From: an uncultured Alphaproteobacteria bacterium
Lineage (GTDB): Bacteria; Pseudomonadota; Alphaproteobacteria; HIMB59; GCA-002718135
Direction of reading: 5' to 3'
NCBI GenBank assembly: GCA_902621725.1
Contig: CACNND010000004.1
Coordinates: 34,224-98,223, forward strand
DNA: 64,000 bases
Below the pieces are notes generated by a model. It was given only the letters and a program-made list of their open reading frames with translations. It had not been told where the DNA came from and searched no databases. Every line of letters starts with the position of its first letter. The first letter of the stretch is position 1. A program made the translations under genes and the position numbers. Shown one piece after another: positions 16,037-23,833 of the stretch.

Positions 16037-18427
16037 ATGAAATTTACACTAGACTGGCTAAAAGATCATTTAGATACTTCTGAAAATTTAAATACCATAA
16101 CAGATACTTTAACCAATATTGGTTTAGAGATTGAAAGTGTAGAAGATAAATCAGAAATATTTAAGGATTTTACAGTAGCTAAAGTTTTAAAAGCAGAAAA
16201 ACATCCTGATGCAGATAAGCTTAAAGTATGTCAGGTTGAAACAATAAATGGAAATTATCAAGTTGTGTGTGGTGCTCCAAATGCAAGAGAAGGCATGCTT
16301 GGAATTTTTGCACCAGAAAATAGTTACATTCCTGGAACTGACTTACATTTAAAAAAAACTAAAATTAGAGGAGTTGATTCTTGTGGAATGCTTGTCTCAG
16401 AAAGAGAGATGGGTATTTCTGATGAACACGATGGTATTATTGAAATAAAAGATAATTATAAAATTGGTGATTTATTTAGCAAAATTTTCTCAATAGATGA
16501 ACCTGTTATAGAAATTAATTTAACACCAAATAGGTCTGACTGTTTATCAGTCAGAGGTATCGCAAGAGATTTAGCAGCAGCAGGAATTGGTAAATTAAAA
16601 GACTTAAATTATAAAAAATCAAAAGAAACATTCAAAAGCCCAATTACGTGGAAAAAAGAATTTCAAAATAATAATCTATGTCCTGGAGTAGCAGGTCGAT
16701 ATTTCAAAAATGTCAAAAATGTAGAAAGCCCTAAATGGCTTCAAGATAGATTAACTGCAATCGGATTAAGACCCATTTCAGCTCTTGTTGACATTACAAA
16801 TTATATTACATTTGACTTAGGAAGACCACTTCATGTTTACGATGCTGACAAAATTTCAGGCAATTTAACAATGCGATTAGCAAACAAAAATGAGGAATGT
16901 TTAGCATTAAATGAAGTTAATTATAAATGTGACAGTGACATGATTGTAATTTCTGACGACGAAAAAAAACTTCATGGAATTGGTGGAGTGATGGGTGGTT
17001 TCGATAGTGGTTGTAGTATGGAGACTAAAAATGTCTTTCTAGAAGTTGCGTTATTTGATCCGATTTCTGTAACTAAAACTGGAAGAAAACTAAATCTTCA
17101 AAGTGATGCACGTTACCGTTTTGAAAGAGGGATTGATACTGATTCGATATATTGGGGTGTAGATGCCGCAACTCAAATGATTTTGAAATTATGTGGAGGA
17201 GAAGTAAGCGATTTAGTTTCTTCAGAAATTAATATAGAAAAAAATAAACCATTTGTATTTGATACAAATAAAATAAAGACTTTTGGCGGAATAGAAATCA
17301 ATAATAAGGATCAGAAAAAAATATTAGCTTCACTCGGTTTTTCTGTAAATGAAAAAAATTCAAAATTTGAAATTCAAAGCCCTACTTTTAGACCAGATAT
17401 TGTTGGTGAGGCAGATATCGTCGAAGAAATAATTAGAATTTATGGTTATAACAAAATTCCTCTAAAAAAAGTAACTAATCAAGAAGAAAAAAAGCAGATT
17501 TTAAATACTAAAACAAAAACTTTTTATAAAAGCAAAAAAACTATAGCTCTTAATGGATATTCAGAAGTTGTAACATGGTCATTTATGGATGAAAAAAAGG
17601 CAAAAATTATTTCAGATGAAATAATTAGTTTAAAAAATCCAATAAGTACTGATTTGAGCACAATGAGACCATCAACGCTTCCAAATTTATTAGAAGCAAT
17701 CAATCAAAATAAAGCTAGAATGTATATGAGAGCTAAAATATTTGAAGTAGGTCCAAATTTTTCTAAATCATTACCAGATCAACAAGAAAATGTTGCTACT
17801 GCTATAGCTTATGGCTCATCTGATGAACAGAATTGGTTATCAAATAAACAAAATATTGATGTCTTTAGTATTAAGGCTGATTTATTTGCTATTTTAGCTA
17901 ATTTAAATGTACCAATAGATAATTTGTTATATGAAAAAATCGAAGGTCAAATCTATCATCCTGGTAAATCATCTTCTATAAGGCTTGGTAAAAATAAAAT
18001 AGCTAATTTTGGAGAATTACATCCAATTCTCCTAAAAACAATGGATGTTAATTTCAAGGTATTTGGTTTTGAAATATATTTAGAGAATATTTCACAATTT
18101 CAAGAAAATAAATCTTCTTCTAAAGGTCCGTTTGTTAACAATCCTTATCAGATGGTTGAAAGAGATTTTGCCTTTCTTCTCCCAAAGGAAGTCGAGGCCG
18201 GTGATATAATTAAAAAAGTAAAAAAAATAGACAAAAATATAATTCACAACGTTACAATATTTGATGTTTATGATGGAGATAAGCTTCCAGAAAACAAAAA
18301 AAGTATTGCTTTTAGGGTATTACTGCAACCTCAAGATAAAACATTCAACGATCAAGAAATTGAAGAATTATCAAAAAAAATAATAGACGAAATATCTAAA
18401 TCGTTTGATGCATATATAAGAAACTAA
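16037..18427 (+). CDS. pheT: Phenylalanyl-tRNA synthetase beta subunit
   Basis: 796 residues, the usual length. Domains in order: N-terminal OB-fold tRNA-binding domain ([13 protein letters not shown] near 55-67), B3/B4 editing domain that removes mischarged Tyr, B5 domain, catalytic-like core and C-terminal anticodon-binding FDX-ACB domain ([20 protein letters not shown]). It starts directly after the pheS stop and its TAA overlaps the lepA ATG by one base. Confidence 0.97.
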
Positions 18428-20229
18428 TGACAGAACTTAGTTCTATTCGTAATTTCTCAATTGTTGCTCACATAGATCATGGAAAATCAACATTAGCCGA
18501 TAGGCTAATACAATTTTGTGGAGGTTTAACTGATAGAGAGATGAAAGAGCAGGTTTTAGATTCAATGGAATTAGAAAGAGAAAGAGGCATTACAATTAAA
18601 GCTCAAACAGTTAGACTTTCATATACCTCAAAAGATGGAAAAACTTACATACTTAATATTATGGATACCCCAGGTCATGTTGATTTTTCATATGAGGTAT
18701 CAAGATCTTTAGCAGCGTGTGAAGGATCTTTACTGATAGTAGATTCTACCCAGGGTGTTGAGGCTCAAACCTTAGCCAATGCGTATCAAGCAATTAATAA
18801 TGATCATGAAATTTTGCCTGTCCTAAATAAAATTGATCTTCCTTCTTCTGAACCTGATAAAATAAAATCACAAATTGAAGACGTGCTAGGTATTGAAACT
18901 GAGAATGCTTCTCTTGTTTCAGCAAAAACAGGTCTAGGCATAGAAGATTTATTAAATAAAATCATAACACTACTTCCTTCTCCATCAGGAGAAATAAGTA
19001 AAAAATTGAAATGTATGTTAGTTGATAGTTGGTATGATAGCTATCTTGGTGTTGTGGTACTTGTAAGAGTTATAAATGGAGAACTAAAAAAAGGTCAGAA
19101 AATAAGATTTATGGCAACAGGTGCTACATATACAATTGATAGGGTAGGTATATTTTCTCCTAAAGCAACTGAAGTTGGTACACTTGGACCAGGGGAAATT
19201 GGTTTCATAAATTCTGGTATTAAAAGTGTTTCAGATTGTAAAGTAGGTGACACAATAACAGATGATAAATTTCCAACTGAAGAAGTTCTTCCAGGTTTTA
19301 AACCATCTCAACCAGTAGTTTTCTGTGGTATGTTTCCAGTTGACTCAGATGACTATGAACATATGCGAGATAGTATGTCTAAACTTGCTTTGAATGATTC
19401 TAGTTTTTCTTATGAACCAGAAGTAAGCCCTGCTTTGGGCTATGGTTTTCGTTGTGGCTTTTTAGGTTTGTTGCATTTAGAAATTATTAGAGATCGGTTT
19501 GAAAGAGAATTTAATTTAGAACTTGTAACTACTGCACCATCTGTCGTGTATAAAATTTTAATGAAGGATGGATCAACTATAAATCTTCATAATCCTACTG
19601 ACATGCCTGATCCTGTAAAAGTTGAAAATATTTCTGAACCTTGGATAAAAGCTACAATAATAGTGCCTGAGGAATTTTTAGGTTCAGTATTAGAATTATG
19701 TACATCAAAAAGAGGTATTCAACAAAATATGAGTTATGCAGGTAATAGACCTTTAGTTGAATATAAACTTCCTTTAAATGAAGTTGTTTTTGATTTCTAT
19801 GATAGACTAAAATCAATTACTAAAGGATATGCAAGTTTTGATTATGAAATTACAGGATATGAGGTAAATAATTTAGTTAAAGTAGGCATTCTTATCAATG
19901 GAGATCCAGTAGATGCTTTATCTTTAATTGTTCACAAAGATAGATCTGAGCAAAGAGGTAGGGCACTCTGTGAAAGATTAAAAGATTTAATTCCAAGACA
20001 ACAATTTAAAGTTGCAATTCAAGCTGCAATTGGAGGTAAGATAATTGCTCGTGAAACAGTAGCTTCATTTAGAAAAGATGTAACTCAAAAGCTTTATGGT
20101 GGAGATGTAACAAGGAAAAATAAACTGTTAGATAAGCAAAAAAAAGGTAAAAAAAGAATGAGACAATTTGGAAAAGTTGATATTCCACAAAATACTTTTT
20201 TAAACGCTTTGAAAATGAATGATAACTAA
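18427..20229 (+). CDS. lepA: Elongation factor 4 (LepA), translational GTPase
   Basis: 600 residues, standard for LepA/EF4. G-domain motifs: AHIDHGKST at 14-22, DTPGHVDFS, and NKID. The C-terminal LepA-specific domain with [10 protein letters not shown] and the basic tail is intact. LepA acts on the ribosome and aids 30S assembly and initiation. It ends five bases before the tRNA-Ser gene, so the two may be co-transcribed. Confidence 0.98.
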
Positions 20230-20234
20230 ATTTA

Positions 20235-20324
20235 GGAGAGATGTGAGAGCGGTTTAATCAGCACGCTTGGAAAGCGTGTGTAGTAGCAATACTACCGAGG
20301 GTTCGAATCCCTCTCTCTCCGCCA
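20235..20324 (+). tRNA. tRNA-Ser (GGA)
   Basis: 90 bases including an encoded CCA. The acceptor stem is GGAGAGA/TCTCTCC, the anticodon loop TTGGAAA has anticodon GGA within the CACGC/GCGTG stem, the long class II variable arm is GTAGTA-GCAA-TACTAC, and the T-arm is GAGGG-TTCGAAT-CCCTC. The last 65 bases are repeated exactly at 21775-21839, so this gene is an attachment site: its 3' part was probably restored by the inserted element. Confidence 0.97.
20260..20324 (+). repeat. Left direct repeat (attachment site) inside tRNA-Ser
   Basis: 65 bases identical to 21775-21839, beginning at AGCACGC of the anticodon arm and ending with CCA. Flanks differ on both sides (C before and T after here; T before and C after in the other copy), which sets the exact repeat ends. 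Confidence 0.95.
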
Positions 20325-20371
20325 TAAATAATAATATTTTTTTTTACTCTAGTTTACTAAAATTCACTTTT

Positions 20372-20389
20372 GGCACACATATGGCACAC
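20372..20389 (+). repeat. Left arm-type site GGCACACATATGGCACAC
   Basis: Two GGCACAC heptamers 11 bases apart, about one helical turn, 47 bases inside the left repeat. The identical 18-mer in the same orientation lies at 21691-21708 near the right repeat. Such paired direct heptamers near tRNA attachment sites fit the arm-binding sites of tyrosine recombinases. Confidence 0.65.
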
Positions 20390-20444
20390 ATGAAGTTATA
20401 TTTTTAATTACTTTTTGTTTATAATTCTGTAAGGAAAGTTATTC

Positions 20445-20747
20445 ATGTTTGATAATTTTAAACAAAAAGATATTTTTTGGGTGGTGCCTATAATTACTTT
20501 ATGTCTTGCTATCCTACCTATGCCAATTGGTTTTTATACACTAACGCGAATAATTATCTGTGGTAGCTCAGTTTATTTTGCTTATAATTTTTATAAATCT
20601 AAAGAGGTAACTAATACTTGGATTTTTGGTTTTTTTGCAATTTTATATAACCCAATTATTCCCGTATATTTATATGAAAAAATAATTTGGACTGTAATAA
20701 ATATAGTTACAATTTATTTTTTTTATATTAACCGAAAGAAGGTTTAA
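20445..20747 (+). CDS. Small membrane protein, DUF6804-like
   Basis: 100 residues with about three hydrophobic segments (near 11-28, 31-46 and 57-95) and a short basic tail. The pattern PMPIGFYTLTRIIICGSSVY followed by NPIIPVYLYEKIIWTVIN is like the DUF6804 membrane family, which has no known function. AAGGAAAG lies 10 bases before the ATG and TATAAT at 20420-20425. It is the first gene of a short co-directional run of three inside the element. The family match is from memory of its pattern and is not certain. Confidence 0.7.
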   Translation: MFDNFKQKDIFWVVPIITLCLAILPMPIGFYTLTRIIICGSSVYFAYNFYKSKEVTNTWIFGFFAILYNPIIPVYLYEKIIWTVINIVTIYFFYINRKKV

Positions 20748-20753
20748 CTTTAT

Positions 20754-21026
20754 ATGAGTTTGAATATTATAGCGTGGATAGTTGTTATGTTTTTTGCTCT
20801 CGGGTGGACCCTTGGTATGTTTCAAGAAAGATTTAGAACTAGATCAAATATGCTTGCTGTCATTTGGTGGTGGTTATCTATAGCTGCAGTATTTACACTT
20901 TCAATTTCTCCTTTTCATTTGTTTTATATTATGCCTCTTGCAGCAATCATGAGTATTCTTATACCAGGTCTTTTTGGTTCAATAATATTGATTGCTATCT
21001 TTTATATTATTTTTAACTACTTTTAA
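20754..21026 (+). CDS. Small multi-pass membrane protein, unknown function
   Basis: 90 residues with about three membrane segments (near 4-20, 35-52 and 55-88) joined by a short basic stretch QERFRTRSN. I do not recognise a family. The gene begins seven bases after the DUF6804-like gene, with a weak AAGG 13 bases before the ATG, and its stop overlaps the next start (TAATG), so the three genes look like an operon. It is cargo of the tRNA-Ser element. Confidence 0.7.
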   Translation: MSLNIIAWIVVMFFALGWTLGMFQERFRTRSNMLAVIWWWLSIAAVFTLSISPFHLFYIMPLAAIMSILIPGLFGSIILIAIFYIIFNYF

Positions 21027-21442
21027 TGAAAACAAAATTCATAAGCTTATTGGTCTCAATTTTATATCTTCCCTTAATTTTTATTGGTCAATTTATTGGC
21101 AATATAATTGGTTCTTTACTAACACCTATTATTAAAACTTTTGATTTGTTATGGATTTCGTGGATTATTAATTTCATTTCAGATATTTTATTTATGTTAA
21201 TTGGCGGTGTAATTGGTGGATTAATCTGTGGTTTTATAATTTCAAAAATTTATAAAAGTTTTAATTTTTTTTATGTTTCATTATTCCCTTGGTCAATAAC
21301 CTTACTTTATGTAATTGCTATTTTTTTAATAGCCCCTTCGTATGGACAAGAGATAAGTATGATATCATTTGGCGATGCGGGTGCTTGTCTTTTATCAGTA
21401 ATTTTCTTTCATATTTATCTTAGAGATAAAGAAATTAATTAA
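21026..21442 (+). CDS. Membrane protein of the mini element, unknown function
   Basis: 138 residues with about four hydrophobic segments (near 5-35, 42-75, 85-107 and 118-131) and a glycine-rich helix (LIGGVIGGLICGFIIS). It is coupled to the preceding gene by TAATG. No family is recognised. It ends five bases before the convergent small gene at 21448-21639. A membrane location for these co-directional products suggests an envelope function, for example exclusion or transport, but nothing in the sequence proves that. Confidence 0.7.
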   Translation: MKTKFISLLVSILYLPLIFIGQFIGNIIGSLLTPIIKTFDLLWISWIINFISDILFMLIGGVIGGLICGFIISKIYKSFNFFYVSLFPWSITLLYVIAIFLIAPSYGQEISMISFGDAGACLLSVIFFHIYLRDKEIN

Positions 21443-21447
21443 ATTAA

Positions 21448-21639
21448 TTATTTTATATAATTTTTCTTAAGATTATTTATTTTTCTGTATTGCCAATAAA
21501 TTATCCCAAAAAGAATAAATACAAATACCGGATATCCAATAATAAATATTAAAATATTAATTAGTTCATAAGTCGTACCAGTAAGTTTTGCTAAGTTTGC
21601 TAAAAAATCTACACAACAATAAAATATATAATCAATCAT
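21448..21639 (-). CDS. Small single-pass membrane protein, unknown function
   Basis: 63 residues: a hydrophobic segment at about 28-48 followed by a basic tail (WQYRKINNLKKNYIK), with two adjacent cysteines near residues 8-9. AAAGGAA stands 8 bases before the ATG, which supports real translation. It is convergent to the three-gene run and lies between it and the right arm-type site. No family is recognised. Confidence 0.55.
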   Translation of the reverse strand: MIDYIFYCCVDFLANLAKLTGTTYELINILIFIIGYPVFVFILFGIIYWQYRKINNLKKNYIK

Positions 21640-21690
21640 AATAAATTCCTTTGTTGCAAACTTTTACCTTTAAAAAGTGTTCAAATTTTG

Positions 21691-21708
21691 GGCACACATA
21701 TGGCACAC
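21691..21708 (+). repeat. Right arm-type site GGCACACATATGGCACAC
   Basis: An exact copy, in the same orientation, of the 18-mer at 20372-20389, located 66 bases before the right 65-bp repeat. Together the two sites flank the element's interior like P and P' arms. Confidence 0.65.
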
Positions 21709-21774
21709 TTACTAACCTAATAATATAAAATTAAATCCAAATAATCCTTGTAATCCCTTAACTAATTTCTCATT

Positions 21775-21839
21775 AGCACGCTTGGAAAGCGTGTGTAGTA
21801 GCAATACTACCGAGGGTTCGAATCCCTCTCTCTCCGCCA
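21775..21839 (+). pseudogene. Displaced tRNA-Ser 3' fragment (right direct repeat)
   Basis: 65 bases identical to the tRNA-Ser 3' part, from the anticodon stem to CCA. The preceding bases cannot form the 5' acceptor or D arm, so this is not a working tRNA. It is the piece of the original gene pushed aside by insertion. It ends 14 bases before the stop codon of the convergent methyltransferase gene. Confidence 0.93.
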
Positions 21840-21853
21840 CATTACATTTTAAA

Positions 21854-23833
21854 TCAAATTTTTTTACACCAAAATTGATACATTCCTGCAAAGATTCTCG
21901 GATTATTTTTTTCGTATTCTTCCCATTTATCAAGATTATATAAATCAATTTTATTACTATTAATTTCTTTAAAATTTTCTTTGACTAATTTATCTTCGAA
22001 TCCAAGAAAGATTAATCCTAATTTATCTAAATATTCTTTTATTTTACCTATTGTAAATCTATGTTCTTGAACGTGAAACAACAAATCCCTTACACCACTC
22101 ACTGTATAAAAATCTGGACTTGATAAAATAAAATTCCATTGTTCATCGTTATTTTCAATTAAATTTTTTCTAAAGTTAATGATATTTTTCAAATTAGATT
22201 GAAGTTTGAGTTTATTAATTTTATTTTTAATTTGTTTTATATGTTGTCTAGCTCTTTCACTATACAATCCAATTAGCATTAAAGAATCATTATTTAAGCA
22301 TGATGTTAATATTTCCCATCCTCTAAATGGATTATCCATATGATGAAGAACACCGACTGATTCAATTATATCAAACTTTCTATTTATTGATTTTAAATCA
22401 AGGATATCCCCTTGAATAAAATCAATATTATTAATTTTTAGTTCATTTGCTTTTCTTTTTGCATATGATAAGCTTTTAAAACTTAAGTCTAGAGCAAGTA
22501 TTTTAGATTTTTTATATTTTGAAGCAGTTGTGATGGCATGTTGACCAGTTCCACAACCCGCAATTAAAATTTCTGGTCTATCAGAAATTCTTATTTTTTT
22601 TAAATCTAATTTCAAATCACTATCTTTTATTACGTCTTTAATATTTCTAGGCTCAATACTTAATCCAAGATTTTGCCATCTAGGATAGGGATTTTCCTCA
22701 TATTGTTTTTTTACCTTAATAGAAACGTGATCCTCTACTTTTGATATAGACTTTATTGATTTAGATATTTGGTTTTCAATTTTATTTTGAATTATATGTA
22801 ATTCAAATATCTCTTTTAATTTAACTGAAAATTTTATTTTATTTGACCAACTAAACTTAGTTAAAGGTTCATAACACGATAGGCATAATATGTCTAAATC
22901 ACTAATTTTTTTATTTTCATTTAAATTATTTTTAATTCTTTCATCAATTTTTTTAATTTTTTCTATTTCATCCTTTGTTTGATCATATATGTATTCATTA
23001 AGAAAACATTGCAAAGATAAAGAAATTAAAAAATCAATTTTAGTGTTGTCAATTTTTAATTTGTATGTCTGATTTAAAATTTCCTTTCTTATCTTTACAA
23101 AATTTCTCTCAATAAAATAATCAGGAATAGGACACACTTTCATAAATTGCATAAGAAGAGAATTTTTTTGCAAATTATTTAAAACATAATTAAAATCTTT
23201 ATTAGCTATTTTATTTTCAATCAAAGATAAATTATTTTTCAAATCTGTATTTAAATATAAACCATTTAAAACATTGGAAGCAATAGCATTTGGCCTAACA
23301 ATAATTTTTTCTTTTAAAAGAAACAAAAGATATTTGTTAATATTTTTATTTTCACTATTTATTATATAAAACTGAAGTACAGCAGCTAAGTTATAATATG
23401 CTACTTTATAATTTGAATTAATTTCTAAAGTTGATAAATAACATTCAATAGCTTTTTTATTTAGGCCCTTTTTTCTATATATATTTCCAAGATTATTATG
23501 AGCTTTAAAATAATTCTTATCTAGTTTTATGACCTTAATATAATTTTCAATTGCTTTATCTTCTTCATTTAATTTGCTTAAAGTATAAGCTAAATTATAA
23601 TAACCATCAGTGTATTTAGGGCTAAGATTTACTACTTTGATAAATAAATTTTTTGCTAGTTGATAATTTTTAAGTTCTGTAAACACTGCCCCTTGAATAT
23701 TATGGAGTAGAATAGATTTAGGAAATTCATTTAATAGTTCATTTGATAATCTTAAGAGTTCATCAAATTTTTTTATTTCAAATAATGATATTAATTTTTT
23801 TATTTTTATTTCTGAAGGTTCGATGGTTTTCAT
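21854..23833 (-). CDS. TPR-repeat protein fused to a class I SAM methyltransferase
   Basis: 659 residues. Tetratricopeptide repeats fill about residues 30-150 (NIQGAVFTELKNYQLAKNLF, AHNNLGNIYRKKGLNKKAIE). A long helical middle region of unknown fold follows. The C-terminal methyltransferase domain has motif I ILIAGCGTGQHA near 418-430, the acidic motif II LALDLS and IESVGVLHHMDNP. The target is unknown; proteins with this layout probably methylate a protein or small molecule bound through the TPR part. It starts directly after the yejF stop, so it may be transcribed with yejABEF. Its 3' end abuts the mini element. Confidence 0.85.
   Translation of the reverse strand: MKTIEPSEIKIKKLISLFEIKKFDELLRLSNELLNEFPKSILLHNIQGAVFTELKNYQLAKNLFIKVVNLSPKYTDGYYNLAYTLSKLNEEDKAIENYIKVIKLDKNYFKAHNNLGNIYRKKGLNKKAIECYLSTLEINSNYKVAYYNLAAVLQFYIINSENKNINKYLLFLLKEKIIVRPNAIASNVLNGLYLNTDLKNNLSLIENKIANKDFNYVLNNLQKNSLLMQFMKVCPIPDYFIERNFVKIRKEILNQTYKLKIDNTKIDFLISLSLQCFLNEYIYDQTKDEIEKIKKIDERIKNNLNENKKISDLDILCLSCYEPLTKFSWSNKIKFSVKLKEIFELHIIQNKIENQISKSIKSISKVEDHVSIKVKKQYEENPYPRWQNLGLSIEPRNIKDVIKDSDLKLDLKKIRISDRPEILIAGCGTGQHAITTASKYKKSKILALDLSFKSLSYAKRKANELKINNIDFIQGDILDLKSINRKFDIIESVGVLHHMDNPFRGWEILTSCLNNDSLMLIGLYSERARQHIKQIKNKINKLKLQSNLKNIINFRKNLIENNDEQWNFILSSPDFYTVSGVRDLLFHVQEHRFTIGKIKEYLDKLGLIFLGFEDKLVKENFKEINSNKIDLYNLDKWEEYEKNNPRIFAGMYQFWCKKI

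Follow-up and report, generated by a model that had tools for sequence, protein, structure and literature searches.

Streamlined ocean bacteria are presumed to share genes widely, yet few recognisable mobile elements are found in them. Phage satellites (PICI, P4-like, PICMI) offer one point of comparison for the locus described here, and several integrase-free or tRNA-anchored systems offer others. The term cis-mobilizable element (CIME) has been used for 15 Dehalococcoides islands at ssrA that lack an integration module, and the available part of that account calls them possible CIMEs (PMC3146451). Additive flexible genomic islands with tRNA repeats are described, in the portions of the sources at hand, for Ca. 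Methylopumilus (fGI-2; PMC10872708) and Ca. Actinomarinales (PMC7771536). Tycheposons of Prochlorococcus are tRNA-bordered cargo elements, and CALINs are arrays of integron cassettes without an integrase (PMC10872708; PMC11389934). The accessible text of a HIMB59 island study reports no tRNA at its phosphate islands (PMC10734472).

The window analysed here (the whole stretch of 64,000 nucleotides) contains one complete tRNA-Ser(GGA) gene, which follows the end of lepA after five bases (Table 1). A 68-bp repeat with one mismatch (65 bp perfect from position 20260) starts within this gene at tRNA position 23 (perfect from 26), just 5′ of the anticodon stem, and returns at a spacing of 1,515 bp; in most relatives the repeat starts at tRNA position 19-22. 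The unit framed in this way holds paired 22-bp sites, TTTTGGCACACATATGGCACAC at 20368 and TTTGGGCACACATATGGCACAC at 21687, both of which are tandem 11-bp repeats. Its four ORFs (100, 90, 138 and 63 aa) are all small and hydrophobic, and neither Pfam nor a local integrase HMM recognised a recombinase among them. The first belongs to DUF6804 (E 4e-22), with 25 relatives in the protein database, one of them named from a Candidatus Pelagibacter. The initial annotation, made from the letters alone, had described the perfect 65-bp direct repeat of the tRNA-Ser 3′ part around a 1,515-bp unit, an intact left tRNA, paired arm-like sites, and only small membrane-protein genes without a recombinase; all of this is borne out. 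We put a probability of about 65% on the reading that the unit is an integrase-less cassette, likely inserted and movable by a tyrosine integrase supplied in trans by a satellite-like element that carries integrase and primase genes.

Table 1. Features of the tRNA-Ser(GGA) unit and its flanks, in window coordinates.
Feature	Coordinates	Strand	Evidence
lepA, left flank	18427..20229	+	Pfam
tRNA-Ser(GGA), complete, left end of unit (attL)	20235..20324	+	ARAGORN
Left copy of 68-bp repeat (tRNA positions 23-90)	20257..20324	+	repeat comparison
Left-end spacer, conserved in cassette family	20325..20370	+	alignment of 46 units
Predicted integrase arm sites on the left, tandem 11-bp repeat TGGCACACATA/TGGCACAC	20371..20389	+	
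100-aa predicted membrane protein, DUF6804	20445..20747	+	Pfam PF20619
90-aa predicted membrane protein	20754..21026	+	hydropathy of G063 copy
138-aa predicted membrane protein	21026..21442	+	hydropathy of G063 copy
63-aa ORF, hydrophobic by eye	21448..21639	-	
Right tandem repeat GGGCACACATATGGCACAC, predicted arm sites, code matches left one	21690..21708	+	
Right-end spacer, conserved in cassette family	21709..21771	+	alignment of 46 units
Right repeat copy, tRNA 3′ fragment (attR)	21772..21839	+	repeat comparison
TPR-methyltransferase, right flank	21854..23833	-	Pfam

For the host family 110 genomes were available, of which 100 were searched and 97 matched, weak matches to other tRNA-Ser genes included. 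The tRNA-Ser locus was sampled from 76 genomes and the window's own (77 in all), the others giving no usable match among those listed, and two genomes with two contigs each brought the number of loci to 79, two continuation pieces being left out of the scoring. The set holds one genome per species, so the variation seen is between species. Fourteen of the 79 loci are empty on the 3′ side, the tRNA being followed within 11-21 bp by the aligned end of a flanking gene, which is the methyltransferase in 11 (aligned end 13-21 bp from the tRNA) and an ABC transporter in three. At six of these empty sites lepA also lies directly beside the tRNA (8-14 bp); at the other eight it is 923 bp off or outside the stretch fetched, and emptiness is shown there for the 3′ side only. 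At least one unit ended by a 5′-truncated tRNA copy was found at 29 loci (46 units in total), and 36 loci hold inserts without a recognisable right repeat, other fragments, or contig-end cut-offs. The units measure from 178 to 13,271 bp, 41 of the 46 being under 4.1 kb, and they also stand in tandem arrays: one genome (G053) has four units of 2,500, 889, 876 and 469 bp, and another (G007) at least four, one of them of 13.3 kb.

The initial annotation had proposed comparing the interval between lepA and the methyltransferase across relatives, and had named the same unit in all of them, with no empty site, as the outcome that would speak against mobility. That outcome did not occur, and its mobile-element reading gains support from the empty sites, from content that varies by genome, and from near-identical units in diverged hosts. 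Repeat and spacing alone would permit an old fixed tandem tRNA duplication with neutral DNA between the copies; the 14 empty sites, the cargo that differs between genomes, and a unit more similar than the host backbone contradict this explanation, which we rejected as scarcely credible.

Other arrangements occur around the same gene. Two loci (L068 and L077) have units of 163 and 178 bp that contain a single arm pair and no cargo; these look like bare attP remnants, as if two arms had recombined. A second, 5′-side element type (L059, L084, L112, L114, L115) has the complete tRNA on its right and, on its left, a tRNA fragment that corresponds to the 5′ half and diverges after the anticodon loop. 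Many genomes contain extra DNA between lepA and tRNA-Ser (L059:909-1748 and other loci), and a gene at this place in G023 is presumably sulfotransferase-like, a label given by eye.

The ends of the units are conserved. In every one of the 46 units, the tandem repeat with period 11 that best followed the form NNNNNCACATA-NNNNNCAC was scored as an arm. The left arm lies 43-48 bp after the tRNA end in 33 units, 31 have the right arm 74-84 bp ahead of position 19 of the right tRNA copy, and both are at their fixed places in 28; mononucleotide shuffles give an expectation of 0.005 for the left arm and 0.07 for the right. Within unit interiors, 13 of 1,395 overlapping 110-base pieces reach an equal arm score anywhere. 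Furthermore, the spacers that flank the arms are conserved despite unlike cargo, as the alignment of the 46 units reveals. The layout of the window unit is beyond chance, because 46 units, its own among them, share it with the distances fixed.

Five variable bases within the arms, here called the code, differ between units (TGGCA, CGGCG, GGTCT, GGTTG, GGCTA, GATCA and GGTAG). Left and right codes of the same unit agree at a mean of 4.04 of 5 bases versus 2.50 for shuffled pairings, and none of 50,000 shuffles was as high (n = 19 units). This comparison used one unit per DNA cluster and required both arms at fixed places, which left 19 of 31 clusters; G027 was dropped because one arm pair had been counted twice. 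An earlier version with 32 intervals gave 3.78 versus 2.33. Unlike left and right codes were seen among the 19 in G005 (1,920 bp), in G073 (1,320 bp) and, less clearly, in G034, and these units may be fusions.

The arms also bear on whether the units are still mobile as such. The left arm is absent from its fixed place in 13 of the 46 units and the right arm in 15, which counts against the integrase-less cassette reading. It would suit a different explanation, in which old islands have died and left these units as remnants, no integrase acts on them, and homologous recombination between tRNA repeats or flanks is now their sole means of spread. The fit would extend to the degenerate units of 163 and 178 bp with a single arm, to the length of the repeats (about 70 bp, enough to support homologous recombination) and to the lack of an integrase in the units. 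However, arm position and matched code are kept in units of different DNA clusters, which dead remnants would not lead one to expect.

Comparisons between hosts bear on the same alternative. Aligned with the whole unit of G096, the window unit shows 95.7% identity (81% in the lowest 100-base piece). Against part of a 2.5-kb unit of G063 it shows 96.6% over 1,395 of its 1,447 bp. For lepA the identities to the window's are 90.7% in G096 and 79.9% in G063. At the left boundary, identity with G063 is 74-87% in lepA, increases to 91-93% near the tRNA and reaches 97-100% inside the unit. The G063 match begins with the base that follows the tRNA and stops 11 bp beyond the right arm, short of the repeat, and its right end differs as if a neighbouring unit might have been fused on; in G096, too, identity drops beyond the right arm. 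Judged by these identities, near-identical units in diverged hosts show transfer, because the window unit is more alike than the host backbone (96.6% versus 79.9% in lepA). Members of two genera, G005 and G070, share a 12-kb unit at 98.8% identity over 12,290 bp; the match starts at tRNA position 19 and continues for 18-20 bp beyond the right copy. The unit encodes a catabolic operon with an ABC transporter, a LacI-type regulator, a histidinol dehydrogenase, a SnoaL-like protein and an SDR. That the G063 and G096 matches fall short of the right repeat at full identity is what dead remnants might produce, but the inter-genus block with its start at the tRNA repeat and the near-identical units in diverged hosts speak against them, and we hold that explanation to be unlikely.

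Two further observations concern the distribution of the units. The catabolic operon of 12-13 kb stands framed as a single integrase-less cassette in two genera (L104:3940-16208, L103:3443-16785, L111). A Gammaproteobacteria MAG contig (L150:6190-6353) ends in tRNA-Ser(GGA), followed by a cassette left end with the arm GGTTGCACATAGGTTGCAC. A search of that contig's own family matched one of 36 genomes, the contig's own, and the complete tRNA-Ser genes of G062 and G091 have a 5′ half that resembles that of L150. The contig could reflect exchange between classes or be a MAG artefact, and is too weak to claim inter-class transfer.

The cargo of the 46 units falls into 58 families, which together comprise 104 ORFs of 70 aa or more. 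Among the best 25 of 61 Pfam families, matches include an ammonium transporter, a glutaminase, esterases, parts of ABC transporters and a histidinol dehydrogenase. Forty-five of the 58 families were rescanned in two sets, and no recombinase, resolvase or transposase was among the matches listed (25 of 27 and 18 of 18). PHROGs named no structural, packaging or integrase family among its matches to the cargo families, most of which have undescribed function, and seven PADLOC models each matched one cargo family (best E 2e-31, mad3). No replication or packaging-hijack gene was recognised with PHROGs and Pfam in the window ORFs or the 58 cargo families, many of the PHROGs matches having no described function, and no transfer gene was recognised in the units (ORFs of at least 70 aa for those other than the window's).

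Tyrosine recombinases (Pfam PF00589) are present in 81 of the 100 genomes, none of these matches being listed within the tRNA-Ser loci that were fetched; in the window's own genome, which is 81.6% complete, PF00589 has no match. A local HMM made from ten phage-type integrases, applied to all six reading frames of the window and 80 fetched loci, detected three truncated N-terminal pieces only (G002, G062, G023), all of them in the 5′-side element type, after its arms and outside the 46 units. An Xer-like HMM had no match on the 80 tRNA-Ser loci and the window. None of the 46 tRNA-Ser units contains an integrase, and the genomes and viral contigs searched yielded no full integrase targeting tRNA-Ser(GGA). 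Scans of viral contigs gave no relative, whether the query was the tRNA core, the left end with its arm, both conserved ends or DUF6804; one of the patterns, used also in the phylum-wide scan below, has a gap one base too short and misses the window's own unit, so its counts are lower bounds. A class-wide search matched the window's genome and four others of 385. A phylum-wide pattern scan matched none of 398 genomes, and says little, since the window's genome was also missed. Nine viral contigs matched a pattern of arms plus ribosome-binding site; their fetched pieces contain no tRNA, and no integrase ORF begins in the 60 bases that follow the arm.

In the same host family, the pattern of arms plus ribosome-binding site led to elements at tRNA-Gln(TTG), a second hotspot with tandem units. 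Twenty tRNA-Gln loci (L189-L208) were taken, chosen for extra tRNA pieces or an integrase, and 13 of their 25 tRNA-to-tRNA intervals have a left arm scoring 11 or more at +33 or +34. In three of the 20 chosen loci (G075, G086, G047) the arms are followed directly by the ribosome site TTAGAAAGG and the start of a 335-aa integrase; G047 has only the 5′ tRNA half on the left, and in G025 the arms and ribosome site are kept while the integrase is gone. A primase-like protein (phrog_1156) is encoded in the elements of G075 (5.7 kb; E 1e-21) and G047 (13.7 kb; E 6e-19), the G086 contig ending too early to show such a gene. The phenomenon is larger than the window, as a cassette family at two tRNA genes. 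The initial annotation had suggested looking for islands with the same repeats plus an integrase: the same kind of arms does precede an intact integrase at tRNA-Gln, and at tRNA-Ser there are only truncated remnants. Like phage satellites, the tRNA-Gln elements of G075 and G047 combine an integrase with a primase-like protein; unlike them, the tRNA-Ser cassettes have no recognised integrase, primase or packaging gene. Of the earlier suggestion of a tiny satellite or cargo island, the cargo part holds and 'satellite' is not supported for the unit itself, no replication or packaging gene being recognised in the unit. The window unit is better called a cargo cassette, and the satellite-like parties are the integrase-primase elements at tRNA-Gln.

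For most genomes of the family a conserved tyrosine recombinase of about 352 aa is listed once. In ten such genes read (L130-L137, L141, L149; e.g., L130:5941-6999), a palindrome (TTACGATAACTGTAATTATCGTAA or a variant) lies just upstream. We take this palindrome to resemble a dif site, and gene and palindrome are possibly a single-recombinase Xer/dif system. A resident single-copy enzyme of this kind could itself move the cassettes, which would make the system integron-like. A match of fitting length and profile range occurs in most of the 81 recombinase-bearing genomes out of 100 (judged from the listed matches and the ten genes read), and it is the sole recombinase match in array-bearing genomes such as G005 and G053. 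However, a dif-like palindrome beside the gene is expected of a chromosome-dimer recombinase, the N-terminus is by eye unlike that of phage-type integrases, the arm-like repeats directly precede phage-type integrase genes instead, and G070 has arrays and no recombinase match (72% complete). With the palindrome by its own gene and the arm repeats before other integrases, the host Xer-like protein was rejected as the enzyme, and we regard its involvement as improbable.

Under the preferred reading of an integrase-less cassette served in trans, the 11-bp repeats would be the arm-binding sites of an integrase, the 5-nt code would set which integrase binds, and the anticodon region of the tRNA would act as the crossover core. 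A cassette would circularise and enter a free tRNA gene or repeat, by which arrays may grow. Comparison of their ends suggests that the tRNA-Ser units are cassettes keeping the attachment ends of the tRNA-Gln element family, and they could have originated when the integrase gene of an integrase-primase element was lost or replaced by cargo. Several results weigh against this reading: the lack of a full integrase for tRNA-Ser(GGA) and of any viral copy in the sequences searched, the absence of a PF00589 match from the window's own genome, the units with a missing arm or unlike codes, and the G063 and G096 matches that stop or weaken before the right repeat. Both the movement in trans and the identity of the helper we infer.

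The tRNA-Ser units are like possible CIMEs, as far as the available part of that account goes, in their attL and attR flanks at one site (by sequence), in having no integrase or transfer genes, in lying in tandem beside an RNA gene, and in the help presumed to come from relatives (PMC3146451). They differ in that 16 islands with serine-recombinase modules share the Dehalococcoides locus, whereas none of the 46 tRNA-Ser units has an integrase, and in bearing coded tandem repeats at both ends (PMC3146451). With additive islands, as partially accessible, they have in common cassettes at a tRNA gene in streamlined aquatic bacteria, ends marked by tRNA-fragment repeats, and variation between genomes (here between species), and the Actinomarinales cassettes likewise occur in more than one genus (PMC10872708; PMC7771536). 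Compared by description only, the available passages on those islands contain no arm sites, codes or integrase link (PMC10872708; PMC7771536). Tycheposons, in the part of the source at hand, are also elements of marine bacteria with nutrient genes; however, they carry a tyrosine recombinase and span 4-200 kb, whereas the tRNA-Ser units have none, the window's measures 1,515 bp, and only five of the 46 exceed 4 kb (PMC10872708). Like CALINs, as outlined in the accessible text, the units form integrase-free arrays with the enzyme in trans, but they are joined at a tRNA fragment close to double-stranded tandem repeats, and probably not at attC (PMC11389934). Among seven recombinases searched against NCBIfam, three matched integrase_gron, with scores near 23-25 bits where the cut-off is 265. 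In the parts of the literature searched, which took in few subscription journals, we found neither coded arm sites described for such arrays nor an account of this tRNA-Ser locus.

A broader picture may be drawn more tentatively, and we favour it less than the cassette reading itself. The locus might exemplify a tRNA-anchored cassette exchange unlike integrons, in which naked cargo carries a 5-nt address code at both ends, every code being specific to the integrase of one integrase-primase satellite. Such satellites would carry nutrient genes of third parties, even an entire 12-kb operon, from one species or genus to another, and the arrays at the two tRNA genes would serve as shared docking bays. 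The left-right code match, together with the integrase-bearing tRNA-Gln versions, makes the helper question testable with purified proteins. The cassette ends (tRNA fragment, conserved spacers and coded arms) provide a search signature. If the cassettes move in trans, part of the gene exchange in the ocean would pass through elements too small and plain for detectors based on recombinases.
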